NCBI RefSeq assembly: GCF_029392075.1
Contig: NZ_CP113929.1
Span: forward strand, 62,001-126,000
Length of the DNA: 64,000 nucleotides
Origin: Bifidobacterium sp. ESL0704
Lineage (GTDB): Bacteria > Actinomycetota > Actinomycetes > Actinomycetales > Bifidobacteriaceae
Direction: 5' to 3'
The translations under genes were made by a program, and so were the position numbers. Below the pieces are notes generated by a model. It did not search any database and had not been told where the DNA came from. It saw nothing but the letters and a program-made list of their open reading frames with translations. This document shows, in pieces, positions 3,550 through 37,352 of this stretch. Positions within the stretch are counted from its first letter, which is position 1, and every line of letters begins with the position of its first letter.

Positions 3550-3973
3550 GTGCATTTTTCTGACGGTGGTGTCGGGAAGGTGCGTTTTGGGTTCGGTGGG
3601 GTGCGCTTTTTGGACGGTGGCGTTGGGAAAGTGCGTTCTGGGTCCGGTGGGGTGCGTTTTTTTGACGGTGGTGTCGGGAAGGTGCATTTTGAGTCCAGTG
3701 GGGTGCGTTTTTCTGACGGTGGTGTCGGGAAAGTGCGTTGGAGCGGGGATTAGGTGCGCTTTTCTGACGTTGGAGTGGGATAAGTGCGTTTTGGGTTCGG
3801 TAGGGTGCGTTTTTTGACGGTAGCGTCGGGAAAGTGCATTTGAGCGGGGATTAGGTGCACTTTTCTGACGTTGGAGTGGGATAAGTGCGTTCTGGGTCCG
3901 GTGGGGTGCGTTTTTCTGACGGTGGTGTCGGGAAAGTGCATTGGAGCGGGGATTAGGTGCGCTTTTCGGACGC
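3550..3973 (+). repeat. 51-bp direct-repeat array A (about 8.3 units)
   Basis: Eight consecutive units, seven of exactly 51 bp and one of 50 bp, plus a partial unit. Each reads GTGCGTTTTTCTGACGGTGG, then TGTCGGGAAA, then a second GTGC box at position 31, then a 17-bp variable part that alternates between a GGGTCCGGTGGG type and a GAGCGGGGATTAG type. The array lies between the convergent rhomboid and Ddl genes. Open frames on both strands are a by-product of the 51-bp (17-codon) period. It belongs to the same family as the arrays at 28423, 30559 and 36757. Confidence 0.95.
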
Positions 3974-3980
3974 AATATAT

Positions 3981-4018
3981 AAAAATGTGCAACCAACAGG
4001 TAGTTCGGTTGCACATTT
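3981..4018 (-). terminator. Rho-independent terminator of the Ddl gene
   Basis: A perfect 12-bp stem (AAATGTGCAACC, 3983-3994, with GGTTGCACATTT, 4007-4018) has a 12-nt loop. On the minus strand it is followed by TTTTTATATATT. It lies about 50 bp past the stop at 4067. Confidence 0.8.
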
Positions 4019-4066
4019 CGGAGATCTGAACGCTGGCAGTAGACGGGCCGGTTGCTCGCCTATCCC

Positions 4067-5149
4067 CTATTTATCGGCGCGATGCTGGCGTAGGACGGAC
4101 TCCACCAGCTGCGAGTAGAGATCGGACAGACTGTAACCGGCGGCGATGGCGGCTTGCGGTAGCTGCGAGGTCGCGGTCATGCCGGGAGCCACGTTCGATT
4201 CGAGGAACTGCGGGATGCCGGACTCGTCGACGATGAAGTCGGTGCGGGAGATGTCGCGTAGACTCAGAGTGTTGTGCGCGGTGAGTGCCGCTTCCTGCGC
4301 CGCCTTGAGCACGGCTTCGGGCAAGCGCGCGGGAACGTAGAAATCGGTCGGGCCGGGGGTCACGCGGGCTTCGTAATCGTAATCGCCGTCAGGCGTGGCC
4401 ACTTCGAGCGGCGGCAGAACGAGCGGTTCCCCGTCGATTTCCAGCACGGAAACGGAAATCTCGGTACCGGTGACGGCTTGCTCCACCAGCGCAACGTCGC
4501 CATATGCGAAGCTGTTGACCATGGCTTGCGGCAGCTCGGAGGCCTTGTCGACGCGGGTGCAGCCCATCGCCGATCCGCCTTGGGTCGGCTTGACGAACAG
4601 CGGCAGCTTAAGCGAGGAGACCAGCAGGTCCACCACCTTCTTCGCACCCAGCTCGCGGAACGTCGATTCGGGCAGCGCTACCGAAACGGGCGTGGAAAGT
4701 CCGCCGAGTTTGCGCACCACGTTCTTGGCGATGGGCTTGCTCCAGGCGGTGCGCGACGCCTTGGCACGCGAACCGATATACGGCAGGCCCTCCAACTCGA
4801 GGATGTCGCGGATCGAGCCGTCCTCGCCATTGGCGCCGTGCAGCAGCGGCCAGACGATGTCGGGGCGGGTCTTGGGGTCGCTCAGATACGGCAGCAGTTC
4901 GCTGTCCATATCGTGCGTGGTGACATTCCAGCCAGCCTTTTCGAGGTAGCCGGAGACGCGGTGGCCGCTGGCAAGCGAGACGTCGCGCTCGTGGCTCATG
5001 CCGCCGCAGATGACGAGCACCTTGGTCGCCGCTCGGTCGATCGACTCGTGTTGGGTTGCGGAATGCTTGCCGTGTCGTGCTTGAAGGGTTGACGAGTCGA
5101 CGACTTTGCCGGGGTTTGCGGTGCTACTGGCTTTGGTGTGACGTGCCAT
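4067..5149 (-). CDS. ddl: D-alanine--D-alanine ligase family protein (ATP-grasp)
   Basis: A 360-residue cytoplasmic ATP-grasp enzyme expected to join two D-Ala for peptidoglycan stem-peptide synthesis. After a 40-residue low-complexity leader it has VLVICGGMSHERDVSLASG (the N-terminal substrate loop, cf. GGxSxEHxVS), WPLLHGANGEDGSIRDILELEG (cf. HGxxGEDGxxQG), LPLFVKPTQGGSAMGCTRV (ATP-grasp lysine and Gly-rich loop), VEQAVTGTEISVSVLE and FLESNVAPGMTATSQ (cf. the metal-binding E-x-N-x-x-PGMT). SHERD replaces the more usual SxEHxVS, so the specificity (D-Ala versus another ligand) is not certain. The ATG at 5149 is preceded by GAAAGG. It is a monocistron with its own terminator. Confidence 0.85.
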   Translation of the reverse strand: MARHTKASSTANPGKVVDSSTLQARHGKHSATQHESIDRAATKVLVICGGMSHERDVSLASGHRVSGYLEKAGWNVTTHDMDSELLPYLSDPKTRPDIVWPLLHGANGEDGSIRDILELEGLPYIGSRAKASRTAWSKPIAKNVVRKLGGLSTPVSVALPESTFRELGAKKVVDLLVSSLKLPLFVKPTQGGSAMGCTRVDKASELPQAMVNSFAYGDVALVEQAVTGTEISVSVLEIDGEPLVLPPLEVATPDGDYDYEARVTPGPTDFYVPARLPEAVLKAAQEAALTAHNTLSLRDISRTDFIVDESGIPQFLESNVAPGMTATSQLPQAAIAAGYSLSDLYSQLVESVLRQHRADK

Positions 5150-5508
5150 AATATCGCCTTTCGATGATTGATATCAGTTGAATGATATGGACTGATGATT
5201 GTTGCTATTGCGGAATCGTAACCGCTGTTGCCAATGTTGTCTGTCAGTTACCGGATAACAGGTAGAAGCGCGGGCGGTGTCTCGTTGCCTGTTGCCATTG
5301 CGGACTGTGTCTCGCAACGGTGGGAATAGCGGTAGAGGCAAGCCGGTGGCTGCTTTGTCGGTGGTTGTGGCGCTGGCGATTTGATATCCATGATTCACCT
5401 TTTGCTGATTCCTGTTGGAGGTAACGGTAACGGAGCTTGCTGCAACGGTGATGGTTTGCAGCAAAATAATATCGATTGATTTGCCGCTTCCAGCCGTCAT
5501 CATTGTGC
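5150..5508. other. Intergenic stretch between Ddl and aminotransferase genes
   Basis: No gene is supported here. The open frame running through it on the minus strand is a shifted continuation of the aminotransferase region. The sequence contains loosely repeated short blocks (GTTGCCATTGCGG, TATTGCGGAATCG, GCAACGGTGGGAATAGCGG types) and presumably the aminotransferase 3' UTR and the Ddl promoter. No clear terminator hairpin was found. Confidence 0.4.
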
Positions 5509-12376: not shown

Positions 12377-15264
12377 TCGTCAGGATCTTTCTTGCGATTG
12401 AATTGGCGCCACAGGCCGAGTACACCCAGAACCAGCGCGATTGCAATGAAAATCATGCCGCTCATGTCGCTTAAGCGCAAGGTGCTGGTGATGCGTGTCG
12501 ACTGCGGAGTGGAGAATTCGTCTCCCCTGCGGTCGGTGAGTGTGAGACGCGCCGTGGCGGTGCCGGAAGTCGAGACGCGCACGTTGAAGGTGGTCTGGGC
12601 CTCGCTGCGGGCGGGAATGGAAAGCGTGGCGAAACGTGTCGTGACGATTTCCATCGAATCGGAGAGCGACGAAATCTTGACCGTGACCGGGTAAGGGTGG
12701 TTGTTGCTCACGGTTACCGGCATTTTCGCGGATTCGCTCAAGACGGTGATGGATTCCGAAGGGGTGATCTTGATGCCGTTCATCAGTTGGGAGGCGAGGT
12801 TCTGGGCGCTCGCGACCATGTGTTTGGCGACGGTGTCGCTGCGGGAAAGCGCATGCAAGGCGATGGTGCTTTGCGTGCTTGAGATGGCGGCGATCCAGTC
12901 GCAGCCGTTCTTCGAGCGTTTCGCCGTGGCGTCGGCGTCTTGGCGTGCGAGCGATTGCGCGTCGCCGGTGTCGGTTTTGCCGCCGTTGACATTGTCGGTT
13001 TTACCACTGAGCAGATTATTGCCATTGCTGTTTGAAGGCGAGGAAGGCGTGGTGTTTTCGGAATCGCTCGATTGAGCTGAAATGCCGTCCGCTTTCGAAC
13101 CCGGTTTTGCCCCGGTTGCTGGAGCCGAGCCCGGTTTCGCGCCGGAGGCTGAACCTGAGCCCGATTGGGTATCGGATTTGGAATCTGACGAATTGCTTTG
13201 CCCGCTTTGTGTTTTCGGCGTTCCGGAATCATTCGCACCGCCGGATGTTCCTGAATTTCCTGTTGTCCGCGAATTCCCCGAACCGGACGAATCTGCCGAA
13301 GACTTATCAAGAATGGATGAATTGAAGCGGTCGATGTCGTTTTTGCCCGCTTCGAGCGCGGTCAGCTCTTGACGGATTTTATGAAGTGCAGAAGCGTGGA
13401 TATTGGACGAATCCGGAATCGCGGTCGCCGCCTTGTCCCCGGAAAGATAGGCTTTGGCCTGATTCAGATCGCCGATGTTGTTCAACTTGAGCCAAGGCGC
13501 CTGCTCCACCGTCTGCATCAAGGTGTCTGCATCCTGCGCGTTGCTCTCGGAATTCGCGGTGGCGGTATTGAAACAGATCAGCAGGTTGCGCGTGGCATAG
13601 GGGCTTTCCATCTGGTAGAAAGCGCTTTGTGCCATGAAACGTGCCAGACGGCCGGCAGGGCTTGATTCCCCGTCCACGGTTTTGTCTGTCGGTTTGCCTT
13701 GGGCGAGCCTGCTCAGCTCGTTCTGTGCGGTGAGCACGGTGACATCGCCCGCAGACGTGTGAACGGTGTATTTGCCGGTGCGGATGGTGGAATTGGTGTT
13801 GCCGTCATCCATGCCCGTGGCGTCCGGCTCGATCACGGTGGAATATCCCTGCGCTCTGGCTGTTTCCAGCGCGTTGATCGTCCAGTGCCCGCGCCCGGGC
13901 CAAGCGTAGGCCGGCATATTGGCTTTGGCGTCGCCCACGGCGTCACGATACTGCTTCAGCGCGGTTTCCGAATTCCAGTCTTTGGCTGCGATTCCGGCTT
14001 TTTCGTATGAGGTGCCGTCATTGATGGCGGAATATGCGGTGATGTCGAAATCGCCGGACTGCATGATTCCGCTGGATTTCGGGGGCACGGGAAGGCTTTG
14101 CGCCAGTGTCGGATCTGTGATCACCTGCAGTCCGGGATGTTTGCTGATCAATTGCTCGACGGGCTGCGAAAGCTTGTGTGCGTTGACGATTTTGGCGGTA
14201 TCGCCCTCCCCCGCAGTCATGAACTGCGTGAGTTTTTGCCCGTCGACCTGCCATTCGTCACTGGTCAGCGGCATGGCGATGGTGATATCCATCGGAGGGG
14301 TGTTCGCGGTTTTGAGACCATCGCTGGAACGGGTCAGGAAGGTGTGGGTGGTGTTGAGATAGGTGCGGTTCGATTTTGCTGAGGTTTTGCCGCTGTCCGT
14401 CGAATCACGAGCGAAGGAATAATCGATGCGCAGAGGCTTTGGCCCCCACGAAAGCATGTTCTTCAGGCTTGGTTGGTCGGGGTTCGCATCGATGGTGACG
14501 CTGGTTTTCTCGCCTTTGGCGATGGTCGGGACGTTGACCTGCCCGATCTGATTGGGCACCTGGATCCGCGAATTGCCCTGTGCCCATTGCTGCAGGTCCG
14601 AGCGTGAGGCGAACGTGTAGTAATCGTTGACGGCCACGCTCAATGTGCCCGCCGGCAACGCCGCGCCGCTCAGGTTGGTAATCGCCACGCTCAGGTGATA
14701 GCCCGAAGTCGAAGTGACCACAGGAGTCGAGGCGGCGATGGTCACCGTGGCTTCCTTTTGTGCGCCGTCGGTGTCGTGCACGTTGGAGGCCGAGTCATTT
14801 CGGGCGCTGCTGCCGGTGCCGTTTCGTGCCGTTCGTCTTGAGGAAGACGAGGAGTTGTGTGAAGAGCGTGGAGTTGTGGTCGTTTGCGGGTTCCGTGTCT
14901 GTCCGTTGGAAGGCCCGGTTTGTTGCGATGGCGCGGGTTCGTTTGGCGTCGTAGGGTTCGCCGGTTCCGTATTGGTATCATCGCTTGGCGAAGACGGGGA
15001 GGCGGGGGTTTGCGAAGTGTCGGATCCGCCCGGGTCCGAGGTGCTGCCGGTGGGAGGAGTGGTTTCTGCCTGTTCTGCGGCGAATGCCGTATTCGGAGAG
15101 AATATAAGTGCCGATGCGCACAGCAGAGCTATGACGGATGCAACAATCGCCGCAATCCGAGAGGAGACGGACGATCGTTTGTTGCCGGCAAAGATGCGGG
15201 TGACGCAGGGGTTCGAGTGGTTCAACCTTCTGCCTGCCTGTTCAGTTTCTTGGCATAAAGCCAC
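12373..15264 (-). CDS. DUF6049 family secreted/membrane protein (Rv3909-type)
   Basis: A 963-residue envelope protein. The signal sequence lies near residues 30-62 (SSRIAAIVASVIALLCASALIFSPNTAFA), followed by a Pro/Thr/Ser/Asn-rich spacer and a large extracytoplasmic region (about 150-880). That region includes ATVTIAASTPVVTSTSGYHLSVAITNLSG and a glycoside-hydrolase/deacetylase-like stretch AYAWPGRGHWTINALETARAQGYSTVIEPDATG. A Ser/Gly/Asn-rich insert occupies about 650-770, and a Greek-key-like domain ends in one TM helix (MIFIAIALVLGVLGLWRQF). It sits between NUDIX and MurJ exactly as in mycobacteria (Rv3908-Rv3909-Rv3910). The GTG start overlaps the NUDIX end by 43 bp; a start nearer the signal peptide cannot be excluded. 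Function unknown, presumably in wall assembly with MurJ. Confidence 0.85.
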   Translation of the reverse strand: MALCQETEQAGRRLNHSNPCVTRIFAGNKRSSVSSRIAAIVASVIALLCASALIFSPNTAFAAEQAETTPPTGSTSDPGGSDTSQTPASPSSPSDDTNTEPANPTTPNEPAPSQQTGPSNGQTRNPQTTTTPRSSHNSSSSSRRTARNGTGSSARNDSASNVHDTDGAQKEATVTIAASTPVVTSTSGYHLSVAITNLSGAALPAGTLSVAVNDYYTFASRSDLQQWAQGNSRIQVPNQIGQVNVPTIAKGEKTSVTIDANPDQPSLKNMLSWGPKPLRIDYSFARDSTDSGKTSAKSNRTYLNTTHTFLTRSSDGLKTANTPPMDITIAMPLTSDEWQVDGQKLTQFMTAGEGDTAKIVNAHKLSQPVEQLISKHPGLQVITDPTLAQSLPVPPKSSGIMQSGDFDITAYSAINDGTSYEKAGIAAKDWNSETALKQYRDAVGDAKANMPAYAWPGRGHWTINALETARAQGYSTVIEPDATGMDDGNTNSTIRTGKYTVHTSAGDVTVLTAQNELSRLAQGKPTDKTVDGESSPAGRLARFMAQSAFYQMESPYATRNLLICFNTATANSESNAQDADTLMQTVEQAPWLKLNNIGDLNQAKAYLSGDKAATAIPDSSNIHASALHKIRQELTALEAGKNDIDRFNSSILDKSSADSSGSGNSRTTGNSGTSGGANDSGTPKTQSGQSNSSDSKSDTQSGSGSASGAKPGSAPATGAKPGSKADGISAQSSDSENTTPSSPSNSNGNNLLSGKTDNVNGGKTDTGDAQSLARQDADATAKRSKNGCDWIAAISSTQSTIALHALSRSDTVAKHMVASAQNLASQLMNGIKITPSESITVLSESAKMPVTVSNNHPYPVTVKISSLSDSMEIVTTRFATLSIPARSEAQTTFNVRVSTSGTATARLTLTDRRGDEFSTPQSTRITSTLRLSDMSGMIFIAIALVLGVLGLWRQFNRKKDPDE

Positions 15265-15914
15265 ACGATTTTACGTTCGTTAGGATAGCTCAGCACGTTG
15301 TCAAGGTCATCGAAATCCACCCAGATAGCGTCTTCGGCCTCATGGTCAGGGTCGCCTTCGACGGTAAGGAAGCCGCCGGTCTGCCGTAGCGCGAAGTGAT
15401 GGACGAGCTTGTGGACGCGTTCGGCCTGGCCGGTGAACCAATAATCGATGGTGGCGATGGAATCGATGATCTCGCCTAATATTCCGGTCTCTTCGTGTAC
15501 TTCGCGCACGGCGGTCTGTTCGGGGGTCTCCCCTTTTTCGATATGGCCTTTCGGCAGGCACCATTCAAGATGGCCGCTGCGTGAATGGCGTGCGATGAGC
15601 GCGACGCGGTTGTGTGAATCGAAAATCAAGCCGCCGGCTGAATATTCACGGGCTACCGGCAGTTCTTGGGCGTCGAGCGTGGCGAATTTCGTGGGACCAT
15701 GGCCAGCACGGTGATGCGGCATCATCTTTGGCGTCGGTGCGCCGTCAGGTTCGATGAAACGGACGATATGACGTTCGGATTGTGAGGTATAAAGCAATGT
15801 GTCGGGCTGGTTGAGTCCGCCGTCGTATCTGCCGGTGTTTCGTCCGTTCGCATTTTGGGTATGGTTGCCCGAGGAGTTGGCCATCATGCGGGCCAGGTCT
15901 GCGGGCGTTATCAT
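15222..15914 (-). CDS. NUDIX hydrolase (MutT-like)
   Basis: A protein of about 230 residues. A complete NUDIX box (Gx5Ex7REUxEExGU) is visible: GHIEKGETPEQ then TAVREVHEETGI. It is preceded by YSAGGLIFDSHNRVALIARH and LEWCLPKG, and followed by IDYWFTGQAERVHKLVHHF, typical of the mutator MutT/NUDIX proteins next to MurJ in Actinobacteria. Hydrolyses a nucleoside diphosphate linked to another group; substrate unknown. The first 85 residues are a poorly conserved, Asn-rich lead. I took the ATG at 15914 (MITPADLARMM); a GTG at 15971 would add 19 residues and neither has a strong ribosome binding site. First gene of the NUDIX-DUF6049-MurJ-pseudokinase run, divergent from the CCA-adding enzyme. Confidence 0.88.
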   Translation of the reverse strand: MITPADLARMMANSSGNHTQNANGRNTGRYDGGLNQPDTLLYTSQSERHIVRFIEPDGAPTPKMMPHHRAGHGPTKFATLDAQELPVAREYSAGGLIFDSHNRVALIARHSRSGHLEWCLPKGHIEKGETPEQTAVREVHEETGILGEIIDSIATIDYWFTGQAERVHKLVHHFALRQTGGFLTVEGDPDHEAEDAIWVDFDDLDNVLSYPNERKIVWLYAKKLNRQAEG

Positions 15915-16350
15915 ACAACCCAGCTTACTCAACAGGGTGTGCAGGTGGGGTGACGGGATAGCAAAGAGCACAAAACCAGCGGAATCGTCTTGACGCTGCC
16001 GATTTTTCGTTTTTGCCCTTGTGGTATTCGCATCAGGTTATTGTGGCGGCTTTGTGTAGCTAACCGGTCGATTTTGCTGGTTTTCGTATGTTTTTAGGGA
16101 GGATGCTATACGTTTCTTGGCAGGGTTGACCGGTTACTCGCAGTAATGTGGGAGTATTAGTGCCGCGATTAGGGCACAACGGCCGACAGGACGGCTGGAT
16201 GGTCGATCGATTGTTGGCCAATGGCGGGTCAATGCCGTGGGTGGCGGAGACGAGATACGCCAGCATCCGAATCCTGGGGCTGTTGCTGAATGATGGACGC
16301 GACGACGATGCTACGATACTGTCACTGTTTGCAGATTATTCCGCGATGAT
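15915..16350. other. Divergent promoter region upstream of NUDIX
   Basis: No gene is supported. The plus-strand frame 16148-16411 runs into the repeat array and has no recognisable product. The segment should hold the promoter for the NUDIX-MurJ run, but I see no consensus -35/-10 pair that stands out. Confidence 0.35.
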
Positions 16351-16660
16351 GTCCATTTGTGCCAGCCAGCTGTCACTAAATGGCGAATATCCTGGAAGTG
16401 GGTACATTTGAGTGGCCTAGGTGTCATTGAATGGGGACAATTCTAGAAGTAAGTCCATTTGTGCCAGCTAGCTGTCACTAAGCGGAGAATATTCTGAAAG
16501 TGGGTCCATTTACATTTGAGTGGCGTAACTGTCATTAAATGGGGAATATTCTGAAAGTAAGTCCATTTGCGCCAGCTAGCTGTCACTAAATGGCGAATAT
16601 TCTGGAAGTGGGTACATTTGAGTGGCGTAACTGTCAATGAACAATGAATATTGCACGAAT
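16351..16660 (+). repeat. 51-bp direct-repeat array, second sub-family (about 6 units)
   Basis: Units start at 16351, 16402, 16453, 16504, 16561 and 16612: four spacings of 51 bp and one of 57 bp caused by a 6-bp CATTTA duplication. Two unit types alternate: GTCCATTTGTGCCAGCTAGC... and GTACATTTGAGTGGCGTAAC.... Both continue TGTCA at position 21 and end GAATATTCTGRAAGTRR. The last unit decays into unique sequence. It lies just upstream of the CCA-adding enzyme gene. Position-by-position it shares GT.CAT (1-6), G.CG (13-16), TGTC (21-24) and the CT.AAGTA-type end with the other arrays, so it looks like a diverged branch of the same repeat. Confidence 0.9.
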
Positions 16661-16751: not shown

Positions 16752-18203
16752 GTGAAATTTGAACGTTGGAGGCAAATCGTGGAGTTTGAGGTGTGGCCTG
16801 AGGCCATTGAGCTGGGGCGTATGTTCGCCGAGCAGGGCTACGAGCTTTCGCTGGTGGGCGGACCTGTGCGCGACCTGTTGCTGCACCGCAAAAGCCATGA
16901 CCTCGATTTCTGCTCTTCCGCACGACCTGAGCAGTTCGAGCCGATTCTGAAGCGTTTCGGCCACGACGGTTTCTGGGACATGGGCCGCAAATTCGGCACG
17001 TTGGGCGCGATGCGGCGTCGCAAGGACGGCACCGAAGTCAAGGTCGAGGTCACCACGTACCGCTCCGACAAATACGACCCCGATTCCCGCAAACCCGAGG
17101 TCAGCTACGGCGACTCGCTCGAGGGAGATCTTTCCCGGCGCGATTTCACCGTCAATGCGATGGCCCTGCGTGTGCCTGATCTGGAATTTGTCGACCCGTT
17201 CGGCGGCGCCAGCGATCTGGCCAAAGGTATTCTGCGCACGCCGGTCGACCCGCGACAGTCCTTCGAGGACGATCCGTTGCGCATGATGCGCGCGGTGCGG
17301 TTCGTGGCCCAGCTCGGTTTCCGCATCGAGCCGGACACCGCCGAAGCCATCACCGATATGGTCGACCGCATCTCCATCGTCTCCGCCGAGCGCGTGCGTG
17401 ATGAGATCACCAAGTTGCTGCTTTCGCAGCGCCCGCACGAGGGTATCGAGGCGCTGTGCGATTCTGGTTTAGCCGATATCGTATTGCCTGAAATTCCGGC
17501 GCTGAAGCTGGAAATCGACGAGCATCATCGTCATAAGGACGTTTTCGAGCATACGTTGATGGTGCTCGACCGCGCGATCGCTCTGGAAACCGGTCCCGAC
17601 GGCCCGGTGCCCGCGCCTGATTTGACCTTGCGTCTGGCCGCGTTGCTGCACGACATCGGCAAGCCCGCCACGCGCCGCTTCGAACCGCACGGCAAGGTCA
17701 GCTTCCACCATCACGACGCGGTGGGCGCGAAACTGGTGCGCAAGCGGATGAAGGCGCTGCGTTTCGACAGGCATCTCATCCAGGACGTCAGCGAGCTGGT
17801 GAACCTGCATCTGCGCTTCCACGGCTACGTCGATGAACCTTGGACGGACTCCGCTGTTCGCCGGTATGTCAAGGATTCCGGCCATCTTTACGAGCGTCTG
17901 AACCGTCTGACCCGCGCCGACGCGACCACGCAGAACAAGCGCAAGGCGCTGATGTTCTCGGATGCGATGGACGAGCTGGAAGCCCGCGTCAAGGAGCTCA
18001 AACAGCAGGAGGACTTCGACGCGATTCGACCGGATGTCAACGGCAACGAAATCATCGAGATCTTGGGTATCAAGCCTGGCCCGGAGGTCGGCCGCGCCTA
18101 CAAGCACATGCTTGATTTCCGCCTTGACCACGGCCCCGCTGACCACGACACCGCCGTCGCTGAACTCAAGCGTTGGGCCGCGGAAGAGGGACTAATCGGC
18201 TGA
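16752..18203 (+). CDS. cca: CCA tRNA nucleotidyltransferase
   Basis: A 483-residue class II CCA-adding enzyme that builds or repairs the 3' CCA of tRNAs. Motif A: LSLVGGPVRDLLL then HDLDF (the metal-binding DxD). Next come DLSRRDFTVNAMAL, ILRTPVDPRQSFEDDPLRMMRAVRFVAQLGF and RISIVSAERVRDEITKLL (nucleotide-recognition region). An HD phosphohydrolase domain follows: HRHKDVFEHTLMVLD and LAALLHDIGKPATRRF. This N-terminal nucleotidyltransferase plus C-terminal HD layout is the actinobacterial PcnA/Cca form. GTG start with GGAAGG 4 nt upstream. Divergent from NUDIX-MurJ as in mycobacteria (Rv3907c). Confidence 0.95.
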   Translation: MKFERWRQIVEFEVWPEAIELGRMFAEQGYELSLVGGPVRDLLLHRKSHDLDFCSSARPEQFEPILKRFGHDGFWDMGRKFGTLGAMRRRKDGTEVKVEVTTYRSDKYDPDSRKPEVSYGDSLEGDLSRRDFTVNAMALRVPDLEFVDPFGGASDLAKGILRTPVDPRQSFEDDPLRMMRAVRFVAQLGFRIEPDTAEAITDMVDRISIVSAERVRDEITKLLLSQRPHEGIEALCDSGLADIVLPEIPALKLEIDEHHRHKDVFEHTLMVLDRAIALETGPDGPVPAPDLTLRLAALLHDIGKPATRRFEPHGKVSFHHHDAVGAKLVRKRMKALRFDRHLIQDVSELVNLHLRFHGYVDEPWTDSAVRRYVKDSGHLYERLNRLTRADATTQNKRKALMFSDAMDELEARVKELKQQEDFDAIRPDVNGNEIIEILGIKPGPEVGRAYKHMLDFRLDHGPADHDTAVAELKRWAAEEGLIG

Positions 18204-18229
18204 TTGCAAGCTCGGCTGATTGCAAGTAT

Positions 18230-24245: not shown

Positions 24246-24341
24246 GATGAGGCGGGTCAAAATGCGTGTCTGCGATGAGGCGGGTCAAAATGCGTGTCTG
24301 CGATGAGGCAGGCCAAAGTACGCGTCTGCGATAGGCCAAAG
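24246..24341 (+). repeat. 28-bp direct repeat, three units plus a partial
   Basis: Units at 24246, 24274 and 24302 read GATGAGGCGGGTCAAAATGC plus GTGTCTGC. The first two are identical and the third has several changes; a 12-bp partial follows. It lies between the convergent DsbA-like paralogues. Confidence 0.85.
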
Positions 24342-25734: not shown

Positions 25735-28362
25735 TTATAGAAGCGGAATCCAGTTGATCTGCTGATTGCTGAGAGCGAACGCCAGCGCCGCGAGCGTTGC
25801 TATCAGCCAAATCGTCAACAATACCCAGCGACGGGCCGAATGGTGTTTTCCGGGATTTGCACCATCGATGTTCAGTTCATCTTCGGCGTCGACATCGTCT
25901 GTATCATATCCTCGATTGGGCTGATTGCCGTATCCATTATCTGCGAAATTCGGTGAAACGAATCGGGATCCTGCTGCGGCGTCCGGCTTGGGATAGGCTG
26001 CCCCGCGCAGTCTGCCGGCGCCGATACGCAACAGTGTACTCTTCGGGCCGAAAACGACGGCAATCCAGGCGGCGGCCATGAATATCGCCAGCGAAGCGCT
26101 CGAATAGGAGAGGGAAAGATCCGCCGGCAAGGCAAGCGGAAGATGCAAGGGGCCGAGAGGCAAAGTGACCATGCGCATGGGAAGCCCCGAAACCAGATTG
26201 ACGACCACCGGGCCCACGCCGGCGATGAAGATGAGCGCCAGCGCTCGCGGGACGGTGAACAGCAGAGCTTTGAGGGTATGCCAAGGCAGGCTTACCGTAC
26301 GCAGCGCCGTGTCCCCGCCTTTGCGGATGCCGCCGTGACGACCCTCGCGCCCAAGTTGCCCCTCTTCGCTGTAACCCAACGTCAGAAGGAACCAAAGCAG
26401 GGCCGTGGCGCAACAAATCGAGATGAGCGGTGCCGAAGCCGAAAGCAGCGCGAGCGGAATCGCCAGAAGCCAAAGCGGCAGGACGGAACGCGAAAGGAGC
26501 CTGCCGCGTCTGGCGTCCGCCGGATTTGTGATTGTGGCTGATTCCGGTTGCATGGATTGGAGCGTGGTCTGGGCTTGTGCCTGCTGGGGCATATAGCCTT
26601 GCTGCGCGTTCGGCTGTCCATATATATATGGTGCGTATGGTGCGCTTGCCGCGTACGGTGCGCCTTGTGGCTGCCCCTGTTGTGCGTCAGCGAAACGTTG
26701 CTGTGCGGCAGCTGGCTGGGCGACTGTGAGCGGCATAGTGGCGGTTTCGGTTTGTTGCGTCGTCCTTGGTTCCGTTGCAGGAAGAGGCGAGGTCTGTTCG
26801 AGACCTTGTGTTGCCCCTGTGCCGAGCGGCATTGTGGCGGTTGCGTTGCGAGCCATCGTGGAAGTCGCTGCCAGGTCTTGCGCCGTTGGGGGCGGCAAGG
26901 TCTGGGTAGCCTCGTCGTTTGGAATCGAAGATAGGTCGGGGTTCGTGTATGGCGTTTGATTCGTTGGCGGTCGACCGGTGTTGTATCCGGTTTTTCGCGT
27001 TCCTGCCGGTGGTCGGCTCGTGGCTGGTTCGATTGGCATCGCTCGCGTCGATCCGCGTATCTGGCGGTGTGGTTGCTTGATCTGGGCGTTTGAGACAACA
27101 TCGTCGGCGGCGCGTTGCAATGGTTTCAATGCGGCATTGCCGTTTGAGGCCGCTGTTGCGGGAATGGCATCGGTCCAAGCGGCTCGGGGATTGTTTGGGG
27201 CCGTGCCTACCCAATCCGTGTCAGGCCGAGGCGTTCGGCTAAAAGGGGGCACCACCCCTTCGGACCCATCGCCCAGCTCGCCGTTTTCGAACGGGTTCAG
27301 GGCATCGAGCGTGATGGCTTGCAGCAATTGGTCGGGGCTGCAGCGCTTGGCAGGGTCGGGGTTGAGCGCGCTTCGCAGTGCGTTCAACGTATTGGGCGGA
27401 AGGCCGGCGAGATTGGCGTTGCCGCTCGCCTCGCGCTCGAGCACCGCCATCATCGGCTTGCTGCCGAAAACCGGTCTGCCAGTAGCGGCGAAGGCGATGA
27501 CGCTGGCGAGCGACCACCAGTCGGTGGCCTCATTGCTTTCCGCGCCGTCGATGATTTCGGGGGCGATGAAACCGGGCGTGCCCATCACCAGACCGGTGCG
27601 GGTGACGTGGCTTTCCCCGGCGCTCATGGCGATGCCGAAATCGACCAAGACCGGGCCCGAGGCGCTTACCATGACATTCGTGGGCTTGATGTCGCGGTGG
27701 ATGATGCCTTGCGCGTGCACTGCGCGGACCGCGTCGATGAGCTTGGAAGCCAGACGCTGCAGATCGTCGCCGACATATCGGCCGTTCGCCGCCACGTCAT
27801 CGCGCAGGTTCTTGCCTTCGATCAGTTCCGTGACGATGAAAGCGAGGGAATCGTCGAGTTCCATGTCGACGATGGCGCAGACACCTGGGTGGTTGATTTT
27901 GCGCATGGCCACTGCCTCGCGCCGCATGCGCTCGCGGGCCGTGACGTGCGGATCGTGGCTGCGGTGATGCGATGTATGGCTTTCGGAACCATAATCTGAT
28001 TGAGCTGAATAGGCGCTGGTGTTTTCATCGTTCCGGCCATAACTGGTAGTGCCGAATCCGTTGCCGGCTGTGTTGTTGCTTGTGGAACTGTAACCTGCGG
28101 AACCGTTCTCGCTGTAGTTGTCCGCATTGCCATAATTCTCGGAATTGTCTTGCGATGACATTTCGTCGTTCTGATAACTGTTCCCGCCGGCAACGCTTTC
28201 GTCCTTGAGTGAATCGCGCAGGATTTTCATGGCGTATATCTGCCCGCCGTCATCGCGCACCCGCCAGACCGAGCCCATCGCGCCGCCGCCCAGCCGTGAG
28301 ATCAGCGTGTATCCGCCGACAATCTCCCCGGGTTCCAGGTCCAACGCGTTCAAGTCGCTCAT
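25735..28362 (-). CDS. Serine/threonine protein kinase with polytopic C-terminus
   Basis: An 875-residue PknB-type kinase. Gly-loop LGGGAMGSVW (25-33), catalytic Lys46 (YAMKIL), HRDIKPTN (His222-Asn229), DFG (241-243) and MGTPGFIAPEIIDGAE are intact, so it should be active. A Ser/Asn/Tyr/Gly-rich insert of about 88 residues (51-138) separates beta-3 from helix C, an unusual place. After the kinase domain (about residue 350) come a Pro/Gln/Thr-rich linker to about 620 and then five or six hydrophobic segments (about 630-770 and 845-866). It ends at the membrane with no PASTA repeats. No clear Shine-Dalgarno; TAGTAT lies 7 nt before the ATG, which would fit a leaderless mRNA. The repeat array B begins only 60 bp upstream. 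It could phosphorylate MurJ-pseudokinase partners (inference). Confidence 0.9.
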   Translation of the reverse strand: MSDLNALDLEPGEIVGGYTLISRLGGGAMGSVWRVRDDGGQIYAMKILRDSLKDESVAGGNSYQNDEMSSQDNSENYGNADNYSENGSAGYSSTSNNTAGNGFGTTSYGRNDENTSAYSAQSDYGSESHTSHHRSHDPHVTARERMRREAVAMRKINHPGVCAIVDMELDDSLAFIVTELIEGKNLRDDVAANGRYVGDDLQRLASKLIDAVRAVHAQGIIHRDIKPTNVMVSASGPVLVDFGIAMSAGESHVTRTGLVMGTPGFIAPEIIDGAESNEATDWWSLASVIAFAATGRPVFGSKPMMAVLEREASGNANLAGLPPNTLNALRSALNPDPAKRCSPDQLLQAITLDALNPFENGELGDGSEGVVPPFSRTPRPDTDWVGTAPNNPRAAWTDAIPATAASNGNAALKPLQRAADDVVSNAQIKQPHRQIRGSTRAMPIEPATSRPPAGTRKTGYNTGRPPTNQTPYTNPDLSSIPNDEATQTLPPPTAQDLAATSTMARNATATMPLGTGATQGLEQTSPLPATEPRTTQQTETATMPLTVAQPAAAQQRFADAQQGQPQGAPYAASAPYAPYIYGQPNAQQGYMPQQAQAQTTLQSMQPESATITNPADARRGRLLSRSVLPLWLLAIPLALLSASAPLISICCATALLWFLLTLGYSEEGQLGREGRHGGIRKGGDTALRTVSLPWHTLKALLFTVPRALALIFIAGVGPVVVNLVSGLPMRMVTLPLGPLHLPLALPADLSLSYSSASLAIFMAAAWIAVVFGPKSTLLRIGAGRLRGAAYPKPDAAAGSRFVSPNFADNGYGNQPNRGYDTDDVDAEDELNIDGANPGKHHSARRWVLLTIWLIATLAALAFALSNQQINWIPLL

Positions 28363-28422
28363 ATGGTCAATACTATCGAGACCGCTGCATCGTTACTGGG
28401 TTATCTGCGCTGTTCTTCATGG

Positions 28423-29332
28423 GTGCATGTTTCCGGCGGTACTGTCGAAAAGGTGCGGGTTGCCTCAAGTAGGGTGCATGTTTGTGACGCTACTGTCAAA
28501 AAGGTGCAGGCTACCTCAAGTAGGGTGCATGTTTCCAACGGTAGCGTCAAAAAGGTGCAGGTTGCCTCAAGTAAAGTGTATGTTTCCAACGGTAGCATCA
28601 AAAAGGAGCGGGTTGCCTCGGGTAGGGCGCGTGTTTGTGACGCTACTGTCAAAAAGGTGCGGGTTGCCTCAAGTAGGGTGCATGTTTCCGACGGTGGTGT
28701 CGGGAAGATGCAGGCTGCCGTGTCTAAAGTGCTTGTTTCTGGCGGTGGTGTCAAAAAAGTGCGGGTTGCCTCGGGTAGGGCGCGTGTTTGTGACGCTACT
28801 GTCGGGAAGGTGCGGGTTGGCTCGAGTGGAGTGCATGTTTCCGGCGGTAATGTCAAAAAGATGCGGGTTAGTCCGAGTAGGGTGCATGTTTCTGACGGTA
28901 ATGTCAAAAAGTGCAGGCTACCTCAAGTAAAGTGCTTGTTTCTGGCGGTGGTGTCAAAAAAGTGCGGGTTAGCCCGGGTAGGGTGCATATTTCCGACGGT
29001 AATGTCTGAAAGGTGCGGGTTGCCTCGGGTAGGGCGCGTGTTTATGACGCTACTGTCGGAAAGGTGCGGGTTGGCTCGGGTAGAGTGCATGTTTCCGACG
29101 GTAATGTCTGAAAGGTGTATTTTGCCGTGTCTAAAGTGCGTGTTTCTGGCGGTGGTGTCAAAAGGGTGCGGGTTATCTCGAGTAGGGTGCATGTTTCCGG
29201 CGGTAATGTCTGAAAGGTGCAGGTTGCCTCAAGCAAAGTGTATGTTTCCAACGGTGGTGTCGGGAAGATGCAGGCTGCCGTGTCTAAAGTGCATGTTTGT
29301 GACGCTACTGTCGGAAAAATGCGCGTTTGCAG
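28423..29332 (+). repeat. 51-bp direct-repeat array B (about 18 units)
   Basis: The longest array. Units read GTGCATGTTT, then a CCGACGGT/GTGACGCT block, TGTCAAAAAG, GTGCGGGTTGCCTCAAGTAGG. Period is 51 bp, with at least one 50-bp unit near 28900 that shifts the apparent reading frame. Sequence types are shuffled: TGTGACGCTACTG and CCGACGGTGGTG cores recur, as do CCTCAAGTAGG, CCTCGGGTAGG and CCGTGTCTAAA ends. It fills the space between the kinase start and the nuclease-like gene end. Any promoter of the kinase gene lies in the 60 bp before it or inside the array. Confidence 0.95.
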
Positions 29333-29383: not shown

Positions 29384-30349
29384 TCACCAAAGAGCCTTTC
29401 CCATCGGCACCCCGTTGTTGAGAAGCTTCTGGATGAGAGTCTGCGGCCGTCTGAGCTCTTCGTAATCCGTACGCAGAATGGCGGTTACTCCAGCACGGCG
29501 CAACGCATCTTCGCGGTTGCGCTCGTCGTAAACCACTCGCCGTGTGTCATGCCCGTTTGTCATATGCTGGTTTGTGTATTTTTCCATGCCGTCGTATTCC
29601 AGGACCACTGTTTTGTGGTCACATGTCCAGAGGAAATCGGTGCGGAAAATATGCTTTCGATTGGCCGGGTCGCGGAATTCGTGTTGCAGCTCGGGTCGTG
29701 CAAGTCCGGCTTCGAGTATTGTTGCGCGGCACAATGATTCGCCGCCGTTCTCGCTTTTCTCATCCGCGTCACGCAGAAGCTTCTGTATTGGTGAGCAGTC
29801 TTTACGCAACCCGGAACACGTGTCAGCGATGTCTTTTCGTGTTGTCATTCCGAAACGCAATGCGGAGTCGAAAATTCCCAGAGATTGCATATAGGAATAT
29901 CGCAAGCCGCAATCTACCAGCGTTCGTTCTGGAGGGGTGATACGGATTCCGTCATGGACGATGAATGTTAGCGGGTGCACGTATATCTTCTCGATCGTGC
30001 CTGATGGGCGAGGTGGTATTGAAGTGTCCGCAGCGATTTGCACATGTCCCAATCTATCGTTGTACCCAGGGCATTCAAGCCCCAGTATCAGTGCGGCACT
30101 CATCGCGCCGAATACTTTTTGGGGATATTTGGCTGCTAGAGCGCGGATTAGGTGTAGGGCGCGTTCTCGTGGGTTGAGCTTGTTATAGTACTCGCTTCGT
30201 GCATAGACATTCGGGTATAAGCGGACGTATTCGTGGGCAAGCCAGCGTTTGCGCATGGACCTCTTCTGGTTTGCTGTTACGCCGAAGAAGTAGCGTTGGC
30301 ATTGCTGGGCGTCATCGGCTATCTGCTCTATTTCCTGATTGCGTCTCAT
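29384..30349 (-). CDS. AbiEi-like / DUF559 (Vsr-type nuclease fold) protein
   Basis: A 321-residue protein. The N-terminal half (residues 1-190) resembles the AbiEi-type antitoxin wing-helix plus C-terminal layout: RWLAHEYVRLYPNVYARSEYY, ALHLIRALAAKYPQKVFGAMSAALILGLE, and TPPERTLVDCGLRYS. The C-terminal part has the PD-(D/E)xK-like pattern of the DUF559/Vsr group: SENGGESLCRATI, then RTDFLWTCDHKTVVLEYDGMEKY, then RREDALRRAGVTAILRTDYEEL-type end. Such solo genes are scattered in bifidobacterial genomes and are often misannotated. No partner toxin or methylase is adjacent. Candidate acidic residues are Glu of GGES, Asp of RTDF and Glu of LEYDG. It is bracketed by 51-bp arrays and preceded by DnaA-box-like sites. 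Confidence 0.7.
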   Translation of the reverse strand: MRRNQEIEQIADDAQQCQRYFFGVTANQKRSMRKRWLAHEYVRLYPNVYARSEYYNKLNPRERALHLIRALAAKYPQKVFGAMSAALILGLECPGYNDRLGHVQIAADTSIPPRPSGTIEKIYVHPLTFIVHDGIRITPPERTLVDCGLRYSYMQSLGIFDSALRFGMTTRKDIADTCSGLRKDCSPIQKLLRDADEKSENGGESLCRATILEAGLARPELQHEFRDPANRKHIFRTDFLWTCDHKTVVLEYDGMEKYTNQHMTNGHDTRRVVYDERNREDALRRAGVTAILRTDYEELRRPQTLIQKLLNNGVPMGKALW

Positions 30350-30418
30350 AGAACCGACGCTAGGCGATAAGTGCTCGACAGGAAAGCTGTGCGGGCAACT
30401 GTGGTCGGATGCTTGGGG

Positions 30419-30520: not shown

Positions 30521-30558
30521 ATGTCCTGATGAATGGCGATGCCGTGGGGAACATCAAG

Positions 30559-30900
30559 GTGCGTATTTGGGACGCTGCCGTCAGAAACATGCAATTTATC
30601 CTGAGTAAGGTGCATGTTTGTGACGCTGGTGTCAGAAACGTGCGGGTTGGCTGGTCAAGGGTGCATGTTTGTGACGCTGGTGTCGGGAAAGTGCAATTTA
30701 TCCTGAGTAAGGTGCATGTTTTTGGCGCTGCCGTCAGAAACGTGCGGGTTGGCTGGTCAAGGGTGCATGTTTGTGACGCTGGTGTCGGGAAAGTGCAATT
30801 TATCCTGAGTAAGGTGCATGTTTTTGGCGCTGCCGTCAGAAACGTGCGGGTTGGCTGTTCTGGGACGCATGTTTTTGACGCTGATGTTAGAAAAGTGTGC
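30559..30900 (+). repeat. 51-bp direct-repeat array C (about 6.7 units)
   Basis: Six full 51-bp units and a partial. Two tails alternate strictly at first: AATTTATCCTGAGTAAG and GGGTTGGCTGGTCAAGG, giving a 102-bp higher-order repeat. Heads are GTGCATGTTTGTGACGCTGG or GTGCATGTTTTTGGCGCTGC. The array lies between the divergent nuclease-like and GH3 genes. Confidence 0.95.
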
Positions 30901-33942: not shown

Positions 33943-34102
33943 GGTGAGCGAGACCATGTACGCGACTGCAGAAGAGGGCGAGGATACATGGCGAGAAGGC
34001 GCGAGTTCGATCCGATTCGACTGAGGTGGCAGATGCCGTATCCATGCCGAAACGCGGTGAGGAAGGCAAGAGCGTTGTTGCCGCTTGCAAGTGCTTTGCT
34101 GC

Positions 34103-34600
34103 CAAATACCTGAATCTGCAGGAGTTCATCGGATTCAAGATGCTTTCCGGTATTTTGGCCATCGCACGCTTTGCCGTCAAATACTCGAGCCTTCGGGGAT
34201 TATCGGGTTTAAGGTGTTTTCTGGTATTTTGGCTATCGCGCGCTTTGTTGCCGTGTGGCTTCTGGCGGCACTGTTCGTGCATGGCGTGAACCTTGCCCGG
34301 CCGTTCGGCGACTATTGCAAGTCCAGTGCCAACGGTCTCGGCGGTTCCCCCGCCTTCCCGTCGCGGAAATCTGCGCACGGCCGTCGGCGTAGTGTGCGTG
34401 TGGGCTTTTGGGTTCCCGGTATTTCGGCCATTATGCGCTTTGTCATCGTATGGCTTCTGCCGGCGCTGTTTGTGTATGCCATGAACCTTGCCCGGCTGTT
34501 CGGCGACTATTGCAAGTCCGGTGCCAACGGTTTCGGCGGCTCCACGTTTTCCCGTCGTGGGGATCTGCGCACGAGCCGTCGGTGCGATGCGGTGTGCGTG
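34103..34600 (+). pseudogene. Decayed tandem-duplicated coding remnant (membrane-protein-like)
   Basis: Two nested tandem duplications: a unit of about 75 bp (34103 and 34178, CAAATAC...GGTATTTTGGC) and a unit of 195 bp (34221 and 34416, CTGGTATTTTGGCTATCGCG / CCGGTATTTCGGCCATTATG). In one frame both 195-bp copies read RFV.VWLL.ALFV...NLAR.FGDYCKS.ANG..G, a hydrophobic segment plus tail. Downstream the hydrophobic phrase AISVVFIAVVGLLLFGCAALLLPGYI continues in another frame (to about 34740), so the open frame is broken. I do not recognise a family. No convincing start or ribosome binding site. Confidence 0.4.
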
Positions 34601-34908
34601 GGTTTCCAAGTTGGACGCGAGCTTCGGGTCGGTCGTGTGGAAATGCGCGATTTCGGTTGTCTTTATCGCAGTCGTCGGCTTGTTGCTATTCGGCTGTGCT
34701 GCTTTGTTGCTGCCCGGCTATATCACCTCGTTTTGCAAGCGTTTTGGTTGCAATGACGCCATTTCCTCGACATTCGTCTCGGTGGACAATACGATTTTGG
34801 CGTCATCGTCGGCTGCTTGTTTTTGAAGTGGCGGATTGCCGCGGTACGGAAGTGACGCAACCGCGGTTTACGCATCCGATTGCTTGATACGAGCTTGGTC
34901 GCGATGGA

Positions 34909-34937
34909 TTGAATACAGTCCAGCATTGTGATACAAT
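34909..34937 (+). promoter_or_regulatory. Sigma70-type promoter for the FIVAR protein gene
   Basis: TTGAAT (34909-34914), 17-bp spacer, TACAAT (34932-34937). It leaves a leader of about 185 nt, mostly AT-rich, before the ATG at 35128. Confidence 0.55.
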
Positions 34938-35127
34938 GTATAACATATCGATGGCTTTTGGGTAAACGATTGTTGTTTTCCAGAATATACAAAAGTTGTT
35001 CGATATGAGATTTATACCAACGATATTGTTGGCGTTGTGCATTGCAGTAGACGAAATATATATAAATTTGTTGGGTAAAGTTCCAAGGAACTTCAACTCA
35101 ACAGGCGGAAACGGGAAGAAGGATGAA

Positions 35128-36597
35128 ATGGCTTATTCGCAATTACTCAAAGGTGGAGTGGCGCTTACGGCCACCGTATGTATGCTGTTCTCCGGAGCAA
35201 GTGTGGGCAATGCCGCTGAAACGTCCACGGAAAATCAGCCCGTGACAGCTGTTGCCGTTGCTGCCTCTGCGGATCAGGCTAAGAAGGGCGTCGCGGTCAC
35301 CGTAAAGGAGCCGGAAGCGGCCGCTGCTTCTGTTGCCAAGGCCGATTTGCGGACCGCCCAGGTGAAGGTCGATGCGACAGCCGCTCAGACCAAGAAGGCT
35401 GCGGAACCTCAGAAGGCGCCGGTTCAGGCCCAAACTCCTGTCCGGCCTGAGGCCCAGGTCCCGCAGTCGGCCAAATCTGCACCGCAGGCAGCCAAGTCAT
35501 CAGTGCAAAATGCGGTTGATACCTCCGCTTTGAAGGCCGCGTTGGATGCTTTCCGTGCGGCAGGTTTGGATACCAACCCCGAGACCGCTGATTTCTATAA
35601 TGAAGCGCTCGATTTGTTTAATAATCCGACTTCTCAGGATGAGGTGGATGCTGAAACCGGCATGCTCAATAGCATTCGGTCTGATTATGAGGAAGCTGGA
35701 GATACCAGTGATACCACGATTCATGAGACCGTCGACAGTTTGAAGGCAGAGCTGCAACTTGTTATCAACAGCACGCTGGAAGCTCAGAAGAACAAGACTC
35801 AGTATCCGAATTGGGATGCCTCTGGCGTGGAGGGTAAGTTGGCCGCTGCCCAGAGTGTTTACAACGATGAGAATGCGACATCCGATAGCGTCACCAACGC
35901 CATGACCGAGCTTTCCGACGCCTATAACGCTGCGGTGAAGATGGAGACCCCGATTCATCAGGATCCGGTTAATCCCAATCCCGTTAAGCTTGATACCTAC
36001 GCTCTTGAAATGTGGATCAACAACGCGCCGTATCTCCTGCGGGACCGCTATACCGCAGAGAGCTTGGCCGCTTATGATAAGGCCATCGCTCAAGGCCGCG
36101 CCGATCTTGCCGAGGCGGCAGGCACTTCGAACTTCCTCGATCAGGATGCCATTGATGCGGACGTGAAGGCAATCGAGACCGCATTCGATCAGTTGGAGAT
36201 CAGCACTGCCGGCTGGAGGAGCATTCTGCAGGAAGATGTGAACTATGCTTACAGCAACTTCAAGCAAGCTGATTACACCGCTGAATCTTGGAAGCCGTTC
36301 GATGCGGCTCGCTCCGCCGGTAAGGCTGCTCTCGAGTCGGTCACCCGTGCTGAGCCTGACTACCGGACTCTTGACGCCAATCTGAAGACCGCCGAGCAAG
36401 GCCTGAAGAAGATTGGCAAGCAGGCTGATTTCATCAAGACCAATAACGCCAAGAATGATCCTGCTAAAAAGACTGACGGAAACAATACCGGCAAGAAGCT
36501 CGCGAATACCGGTTCCAATGTCGCAGCTGTCTCGCTTGTGGCTTTCATGGCTTTTGCTGCTGCTGCTGCTCTCACCGCGTTGCGCAGGCGCGACTGA
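35128..36597 (+). CDS. Cell-wall-anchored FIVAR-type surface protein (LANTG signal)
   Basis: A 489-residue secreted protein. Signal peptide 1-30 (LLKGGVALTATVCMLFSGASVGNAAE), Ala/Lys/Gln/Pro-rich spacer (31-125) and three or four helical FIVAR-like modules (about 128-430). Module phrases include LKAALDAFRAAGLD, VDSLKAELQLVINSTLEAQKNKTQYPNWDASGVEGKLAAAQSVYND, LEMWINNAPYLLRDRYTAESLAAYDKAIAQGRADL and YAYSNFKQADYTAESWKPFDAARSAGKAAL. The end is a sortase signal LANTGS (458), a hydrophobic stretch and RRRD. The upstream frame from 34996 is rejected because AAGGATGAA directly precedes ATG 35128. FIVAR modules bind sugars or proteins in other bacteria, so an adhesin role is likely. Confidence 0.87.
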   Translation: MAYSQLLKGGVALTATVCMLFSGASVGNAAETSTENQPVTAVAVAASADQAKKGVAVTVKEPEAAAASVAKADLRTAQVKVDATAAQTKKAAEPQKAPVQAQTPVRPEAQVPQSAKSAPQAAKSSVQNAVDTSALKAALDAFRAAGLDTNPETADFYNEALDLFNNPTSQDEVDAETGMLNSIRSDYEEAGDTSDTTIHETVDSLKAELQLVINSTLEAQKNKTQYPNWDASGVEGKLAAAQSVYNDENATSDSVTNAMTELSDAYNAAVKMETPIHQDPVNPNPVKLDTYALEMWINNAPYLLRDRYTAESLAAYDKAIAQGRADLAEAAGTSNFLDQDAIDADVKAIETAFDQLEISTAGWRSILQEDVNYAYSNFKQADYTAESWKPFDAARSAGKAALESVTRAEPDYRTLDANLKTAEQGLKKIGKQADFIKTNNAKNDPAKKTDGNNTGKKLANTGSNVAAVSLVAFMAFAAAAALTALRRRD

Positions 36598-36662
36598 GCT
36601 GAAGTTGCTGGTTCATGCTCATACGGGCTGATTCGCAGTGATGTAGAGCCCAGTTGAATGAT

Positions 36663-36701
36663 GAGACCGCCCCGGGAAACGATTCCTCCCGGGGCGGTCT
36701 C
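36663..36701 (+). terminator. Strong terminator after the FIVAR gene
   Basis: GAGACCGCCCCGGGA and TCCCGGGGCGGTCTC form a perfect 15-bp GC stem with a 9-nt loop, followed by TTGCAT. It lies 65 bp past the stop. Confidence 0.85.
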
Positions 36702-36756
36702 TTGCATAGGTAATGACAACAGCCGCACATGCTTGGTTCGGCTTAGACCCATCGAT

Positions 36757-37352
36757 GTGCGCTTGCCGTGGTTGCGTCTGAAAAGTGCACTTTGGGTGCG
36801 TTAAGTTGCATGTTTGTGGCGGTGGCGTCTGAAAGGTGCATGCTGGGATGGCTGGGGTGCATGTTTGTGACGGCGGCGTCGGAAACGTGCACTTTGGGTG
36901 CGTTAAGTTGCATGTTTGTGACGGTGGTGTTTGGAAAGTGCATGCTGGGAGCCGGGTGCGCACGTTTGTGACGGCGGTGTTGGAAACGTGCACTTTGGGT
37001 GCGTTAAGTTGCATGTTTGTGACGGTGGCGTCTGGAATGTGCGTGTTGGTGGGTGTGGGGTGCATGTTTGTGACGGTGGTGTTTGGAAAGTGCATGCTGG
37101 GAGGGCTGGGGTGCGCTTTTGTGACAGTGGCGCCGGGAAAGTGCATGTTAGAGGGCGCAGGGTGCATGTTTGTGACGGTGGTGTTTGGAAAGTGCATGTT
37201 GGAAGGGTTAAGTTGCACTTTTGTGACGGGAGCGCCGGGAAAGTGCATGTTGGAGGGCGCAGGGTGCATGTTTGTGACGGCGGTGTTTGAAAAGTGCATG
37301 TTGGGAGAGCTAGGGTGCGCTTTTGTGACAGTGGCGCCGGGAAAGTGCGACT
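36757..37352 (+). repeat. 51-bp direct-repeat array D (about 11.7 units)
   Basis: Units read GTGCATGTTTGTGACGGTGG, TGTTTGGAAA, GTGCATGCTGGGAGGGCTGGG. Tails alternate among CACTTTGGGTGCGTTAAGTT, CATGCTGGGAGGGCTGGG and CATGTTGGAGGGCGCAGG. G-tracts in the tails are strong on the plus strand. It lies between the FIVAR terminator and the AbgB-like gene; the long open frames on both strands are artefacts of the 51-bp period. Confidence 0.95.

Follow-up and report, generated by a model that had tools for sequence, protein, structure and literature searches.

A 64-kb stretch of the chromosome of Bifidobacterium sp. ESL0704 (bases 62001-126000 of one 2,415,815-base contig, called here the window, with coordinates counted from its first base) carries several tandem arrays of a 51-bp unit that all appear to point the same way. 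These arrays raise two questions: what keeps such a unit and its spacing, and what gives the arrays a direction? The answer that we favour, with a probability of about 45%, is that they are double-stranded lattices for a clade-specific DNA-binding protein, which would make them a mark of the origin-proximal nucleoid, and that their polarity is a by-product. The evidence comes from the anatomy of the unit, from the distribution of the arrays in this genome and in its relatives, and from the strand asymmetry of their sequence.

Tandem arrays of the window

The preliminary description of this DNA had claimed five 51-bp arrays, and all five were located by TRF, direct reading and profile; we refer to them as arrays A to E. 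The arrays that start at about 3550, 28423, 30559 and 36757 form a single 51-bp main family, of which 41 units were aligned, with a mean column identity of 76%. Array A (3550..3972, + strand) has eight full 51-bp units and lies between the convergent genes for a rhomboid-family protein (2721-3473, +) and a D-Ala-D-Ala ligase (4067-5149, -). Array C (28421..29327, +), with 17-18 units, is flanked by two lagging-strand genes, one for a kinase (25735-28362, -) and one without Pfam match (29384-30349, -). Array D (30554..30897, +) has 6-7 units and a 102-bp higher-order repeat, and array E (36757..37349, +) has 11-12 units and higher-order repeats of 102/204 bp. As had been read, the main-family unit begins with GTGC and the next GTGC comes 30 bp further on, at position 31. 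The odd-length units previously noted are also present, namely 50-bp units at 3805, 28882 and 36908 in the main family and one 57-bp step (16504-16561) in array B. On the + strand of the window 55 pairs of GTGC are 51 bp apart, against a background mean of 3.1 (maximum 12) for distances of 10-119 minus 21, 30, 51, 72, 81 and 102, and on the - strand there are 0; these distance statistics exclude chance as the origin of the arrays. The profile made from the 41 units matches 44 stretches of the + strand of the window at E<=1.6e-7, 41 of which are the training units, and the weak matches on the - strand, up to 23 bits, arise because the unit is a quasi-palindrome.

At gathering thresholds the sole Rfam match in the window is a tRNA, and the arrays match no structured-RNA family there. 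By their repeat pattern the arrays are not CRISPR-like, since units vary and linkers recur within arrays rather than being unique spacers. The arrays had also been judged non-coding because indels shift the frame. The conclusion is supported, but the argument is only partly right: among the 42 arrays of at least four units in five genomes (see below), 15 have no stop-free frame and 27 keep some stop-free frame. The open frame is not the same from array to array in the ESL0704 genome.

Array B (16351..16641, +) belongs to a different family, with CCATTT/AAATGG boxes in 51-bp steps, and lies between divergent genes for a NUDIX protein (15222-15971, -) and a poly-A-polymerase/CCA-type protein (16752-18203, +). 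It had been described as having the 51-bp period but not the boxes of the main arrays, and indeed the period is common while no sequence in common is detectable. Homology with the main family, which came from a register alignment by eye only, was rejected, as the 69-array main-family profile matches nothing inside array B even with filters off. The dyad centres of array B are weak (11 of 17 arm matches at best, in a count run without control). BLAST reveals a single degenerate relative, at genome 4196-4292, on the right replichore 4 kb from oriC, and none in 100 other genomes of the genus. Array B may still be a diverged cousin of the main family with a changed box.

Three other sets of tandem repeats were seen in the window: 18-bp perfect or near-perfect repeats together with a 19-bp imperfect array (CCGATTCCCGTCGGTA-like) at 41175-41245, 42981-43054 and 43106-43305, whose consensus units are unlike the 51-bp family; a 28-bp repeat of 3.3 copies at 24246-24336; and 219/435-bp repeats at 57927-59791, inside a 1682-aa ORF (57051-62099, -) that perhaps encodes a putative repeat-bearing surface protein.

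Double dyad symmetry of the unit

The main-family unit is doubly dyad-symmetric, a feature absent from the preliminary description. It is made of a 34-bp palindrome, TGCA-N2-TTT-N2-GACG-N4-CGTC-N2-AAA-N2-TGCA, and then a linker with symmetric ends. In the purine/pyrimidine (R/Y) alphabet positions 2-35 are palindromic about 18.5, and the unit is almost its own reverse complement; the conserved columns give the best match, unlike the variable pairs 7/30 and 17/20, and a second symmetry, about 44, relates the linker ends (38-40 and 48-50). In the unit at 30661..30711 (+), for example, TGCA (2-5), TTT (8-10) and GACG (13-16) precede the dyad centre at 18.5, TGTC (21-24), GAA (27-29, consensus AAA) and TGCA (32-35) follow it, and TTA (38-40) and TAA (48-50) lie on either side of the second dyad centre, 44. 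The two GTGC boxes are instances of a single palindromic box, of AAA-N2-TGCA-N2-TTT type, spaced alternately 30 and 21 bp, and the GACG-N4-CGTC core is confined to the 30-bp interval.

When each array is given the same weight (69 arrays, five genomes), information is 1.08 bits per column at positions 2-35 versus 0.17 in the linker core (41-47), and identity between arrays is 0.67 in the core and 0.31 in the linker core, compared with 0.72 and 0.42 within arrays. The step is exactly 51 bp in 231 of the 256 steps of these genomes. A core that is common to unlinked arrays, with linkers that are not, indicates a common trans-acting reader, and a unit of fixed length and free sequence suggests that spacing is constrained, although tandem copying, too, preserves length within an array. 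Core conservation and fixed spacing make a bound protein with phased boxes, as first proposed, probable on sequence grounds. A neutral minisatellite, growing by slippage without any binder, would agree with the homogenisation within arrays, with the 102/204-bp higher-order repeats and with the higher identity of linker cores within arrays than between them, but it accounts neither for core columns that are kept between unlinked arrays while linkers are not, nor for a unit length that is fixed though linker sequence is free, and we consider it very unlikely.

Transitions in the arrays preserve G-U pairs, which made a reading of the palindrome as a hairpin or an RNA attractive. This reading was rejected: when one unit per array was taken, in 200 draws, the palindrome arms showed no covariation, and in a second test 80.7% of cells were paired versus 82.2% in shuffles, and 493 of 500 shuffles reached the observed covariation score. 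Arm positions vary independently, the palindrome is preserved by sequence and not by pairing, and the lack of covariation between halves is as expected for independent protein contacts.

Distribution in the genome

For the whole-genome analysis oriC was taken at the contig ends, the position of dnaA (within about the last kilobase of the contig), and the terminus was assumed at the opposite point. The whole-genome profile search that had been suggested at the outset was made with two profiles, R1 (41 window units) and R2 (69 units, one per array, five species), and both gave the same 17 main-family arrays, with 120 units, among the matches listed in the 2.42-Mb genome; R1 scored 150 of 1335 first-look candidates and R2 150 of 898, and faint arrays may be missed. 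Among the matches listed, nine arrays are on the + strand (13.9-757 kb) and eight on the - strand (1676-2385 kb), and neither R1 nor R2 lists any between 757 and 1676 kb; the profiles leave the strand of the 2346.8-kb array ambiguous, and the 757-kb array is nearly as good on the - strand. Plotted against oriC and the terminus, orientation is + on the right replichore and - on the left, in ESL0704 and in four other genomes.

Among the arrays listed, the terminus third holds none of 17 in ESL0704 (G000), none of 8 in G048, 2 of 16 in G055, 1 of 16 in G058 and 1 of 12 in G094, the sets of G048 and G094 being partial. The origin bias has a KS p of 0.00085 in ESL0704 (0.0042 after merging near arrays), 0.0019 in G058, 0.0074 in G048, 0.025 in G055 and a weak 0.13 in G094, values that are not independent of one another, nor are the 69 arrays, as sites are common between species.

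Loci of the datA type are duplicated early in replication and thereby sequester a regulator. Origin-proximal arrays could act likewise, as a titration sink or a timer, and the origin bias, the 120 units of ESL0704 among the matches listed and the same-site arrays in other species point in this direction; the 17 listed places however extend across two thirds of the chromosome, the proposal comes without a candidate regulator, and we find it unlikely. The positions of the arrays relative to genes bear on another proposal, that they are clustered operators for an ordinary transcription factor. Arrays C and D are upstream of genes and one array is 35 bp before a response-regulator gene, but at least five arrays (at 13.9, 65.5, 391, 757 and 2112 kb) separate convergent genes, and no theme unites the flanking genes that were examined, which leaves operators an extremely improbable explanation.

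Occurrence in relatives

At least 52 further arrays were found in four other one-contig genomes, G048, G055, G058 and G094. The examined stretches held 328 units; without three lone ones (L115, L144, L145), 325 units remain, in 69 arrays from five genomes; the stretches of each other genome contribute 37-78 units, as partial sets, and some matches of the R2 search, for example G048 2496710, G058 2320041 and G094 2423899, are outside the 69. At E<=1e-4 R2 finds the main family in 11 of 112 genomes of the genus, and R1 finds the same 11 in 101 genomes. In a ParB tree of 20 rows (11 genomes with arrays and 9 without, G010 being left out for a wrong reading frame), a branch supported at 100/100 separates the 11 array genomes from the 9 array-free ones. 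Judged by ParB sequences, array carriers form one clade among the genomes sampled; absence from relatives without pattern, an outcome that the preliminary description had envisaged, did not occur.

For 15 of the 17 ESL0704 arrays, the same gene-flanked site holds an array in at least one of G048, G055, G058 and G094 (the exceptions are at 98.8 and 325 kb), a count of presence and not of losses, as the loci were chosen for carrying matches. The sites at 391, 757, 1676, 1800, 1975, 2049 and 2112 kb lie on opposite replichores in different species, the arrangement that large, ori-ter-symmetric inversions would leave. Since such an inversion keeps the strand of a site constant with respect to replication, these sites do not discriminate between readings of the polarity. 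An exact-pattern scan of named genomes gave one record with an array, the MAG 'Bifidobacterium sp. isolate B-bin1', which is syntenic with the ESL0704 site at 2049 kb (74-90% DNA identity); the exact pattern is absent from the viral contigs scanned. We found no published description of this repeat in the bifidobacterial-repeat literature searched, most subscription journals being outside the search.

PMC2817692 describes REP/BIME as extragenic palindromes in regular composite arrays, with more than 100 copies and a proposed role in chromosome organisation. The Bifidobacterium arrays are also extragenic palindromes in composite arrays, with 120 listed units in ESL0704 and at least five arrays between convergent genes, and by this likeness they could be elements that a transposase spreads or keeps and that act via hairpins. 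They differ from REP/BIME by a doubly symmetric unit, by an origin bias and by many sites that are common to several species and not scattered. In addition, the maintenance of a hairpin stem is not seen in the arms, where compensatory change is lacking, and the RAYT hypothesis is not supported, as the Y1 transposase domain (PF01797) is found in none of the 11 array genomes and in one of 12 array-free genomes; this search does pick up a Y1 transposase in G102 and in 5 of 14 controls. Such an element is therefore highly improbable, and the lattice bound as a duplex is still the reading that we retain.

Polarity and strand asymmetry

Polarity was recounted with a reverse-complement-symmetrised, direction-free profile, in which G/T versus A/C on the + strand is scored per symmetric pair. 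In ESL0704, 16 arrays are lead-like, one is a tie and none is opposite; in the five genomes 64 of 69 are lead-like, with three ties, one of which is in G094, and two opposite (both in G055). The suspected tie to replication direction is thus upheld, and the random orientation on both replichores that had been considered as an alternative outcome did not occur. Polarity had also been claimed to be the same whatever the direction of the flanking genes, and array C and three others (1675, 2279 and 2384 kb), with lagging-strand genes on both sides, are all lead-like. On these grounds read-through transcription was rejected as the source of the strand.

The nature of this polarity is another matter. 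The claim of a same polarity in the window is correct for the four-letter sequence, and in the R/Y alphabet the unit is nearly direction-free: a four-letter leave-one-out test gives a direction in 16 of 17 ESL0704 arrays, with up to 34 bits per unit, and the R/Y test leaves a residual polarity in 15 of 17, which does not exceed about 6 bits per unit. Most of the directional signal consists of transitions, with an excess of C-to-T and A-to-G on the leading strand. In the five genomes the G.T/A.C ratio is 3.14 (95% 2.56-3.85) at conserved pairs, the odds are as strong in the unconserved linker core (2.88, 95% 2.34-3.51), and 17 of 19 symmetric pairs lean in the same direction. In ESL0704 alone the linker core (3.18, 1.95-5.33) is below the conserved pairs (5.55, 3.67-9.48), with overlapping intervals, and falls to about 2.2 when units are not weighted by array. 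Because linker columns are as asymmetric as conserved pairs, the polarity looks mutational: mutational asymmetry accounts for a keto preference at nearly all pairs and at unconserved columns, and a direction-reading protein does not. The apparent polarity therefore resembles a mutational imprint more than a built-in arrow, and the earlier view, in which the binding lattice itself has a fixed polarity, is not supported.

The asymmetry of the arrays (GT/AC of 5.55 in ESL0704, 2.69 in G048, 1.61 in G055, 2.83 in G058 and 3.96 in G094) compares with odds of 1.39-1.60 in other intergenic DNA at the same loci. It is two- to threefold higher in log odds, an excess that four genomes show clearly but G055 (1.61, 1.18-2.22) does not, and it ends at the array edges, the first 300 bp of flank having a GC skew of 0.03-0.05. 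This excess and its limits indicate that plain mutation pressure is insufficient, and our guess is that the lagging-strand template stays single-stranded for longer at bound arrays.

KOPS and Chi are short, single, asymmetric motifs with a strand bias relative to replication, and KOPS and Ter sites act on the terminus side. The arrays could be truly polar elements of a KOPS-, Chi- or fork-trap-like kind, which a translocase or the replication fork reads one way, selection keeping the keto-rich strand leading. A strand bias is common to both, 64 of 69 arrays follow the replichore and two oppose it whatever the direction of neighbouring genes, and the asymmetry exceeds the intergenic background up to the array edges. 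Nevertheless, the array motif is symmetric, with its bias in substitutions, and the lattice is nearly reversible in R/Y. Moreover, a polar site predicts particular contacts, in either direction, whereas 17 of 19 pairs and the linker core all take part in the asymmetry, and few or no arrays are on the terminus side, where KOPS and Ter act. A polar element is, in our opinion, improbable.

A candidate protein-bound lattice around the origin

If the arrays are lattices for a DNA-binding protein, as we propose, its dimers would read TGCA/TTT/GACG half-sites set as 34-bp palindromes, one per 51 bp. Boxes spaced alternately by 30 and 21 bp, or about three and two turns, would be presented on one DNA face, and the protein may line up or oligomerise along each array. 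With many arrays around oriC and few or none near the terminus, bound arrays would mark the origin-proximal nucleoid, and they would most likely determine the place of division or hold it back, or else organise the origin domain, like Noc and SlmA sites. Polarity would follow from C to T and A to G changes on the lagging-strand-template strand, which alter one partner of each symmetric pair.

In distribution, the sites of Noc (Bacillus subtilis) and SlmA (Escherichia coli) are the best analogue: PMC4726725 describes tens of palindromes over the chromosome that are rarer at the terminus, and the arrays are likewise palindromic, chromosome-wide and, from the terminus-third counts of five genomes, under-represented in the terminus region. 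Noc sites are however single 14-bp palindromes, whereas the Bifidobacterium arrays are 51-bp tandem lattices. The arrays also resemble parS (consensus GTTTCACGTGAAAC) as palindromic sites near oriC, but their unit sequence is unlike parS. Seven perfect parS 14-mers (L076 2329-6509, genome 2406.3-2410.5 kb) are around parAB, separate from the arrays, and in the array-bearing stretches GTTTCACGTGAAAC at up to two mismatches has one match, L073:9192, outside the array.

A further proposal, which we regard as doubtful, is a chromosome-marking system not described before, in which a clade-specific protein polymerises on the doubly symmetric 51-bp lattices around oriC and serves as a nucleoid-occlusion or origin-domain factor, and in which bound arrays slow the lagging strand, becoming local hotspots of asymmetric mutation; if this were true, the array-confined asymmetry would be a readable footprint of encounters between forks and proteins. 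To our knowledge, the coordination of nucleoid position with division has been little studied in bifidobacteria, and origin-centred, clade-wide lattices of sites would offer a biochemical handle, since DNA carrying such a defined site could serve as bait. In addition, the arrays provide a natural experiment for strand-asymmetric mutation, in which a symmetric site allows a position-by-position comparison of strands.

A Noc paralogue is not supported as the binder. In the 23 genomes searched for ParB_N and Y1 (11 with arrays and 12 without) ParB_N is not expanded; ESL0704 has the two halves of the oriC ParB only, with no ParB paralogue, and among the 11 array genomes an extra ParB_N place is present in G094 and G050 only. 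As a separate observation, ParB_N was matched in two pieces in most of the 23 genomes, as if ParB carried an insertion, and the ParB of the longest ORF has 445-521 aa in the 11 array genomes versus 422-469 aa in 9 others (wrong-frame row excluded).
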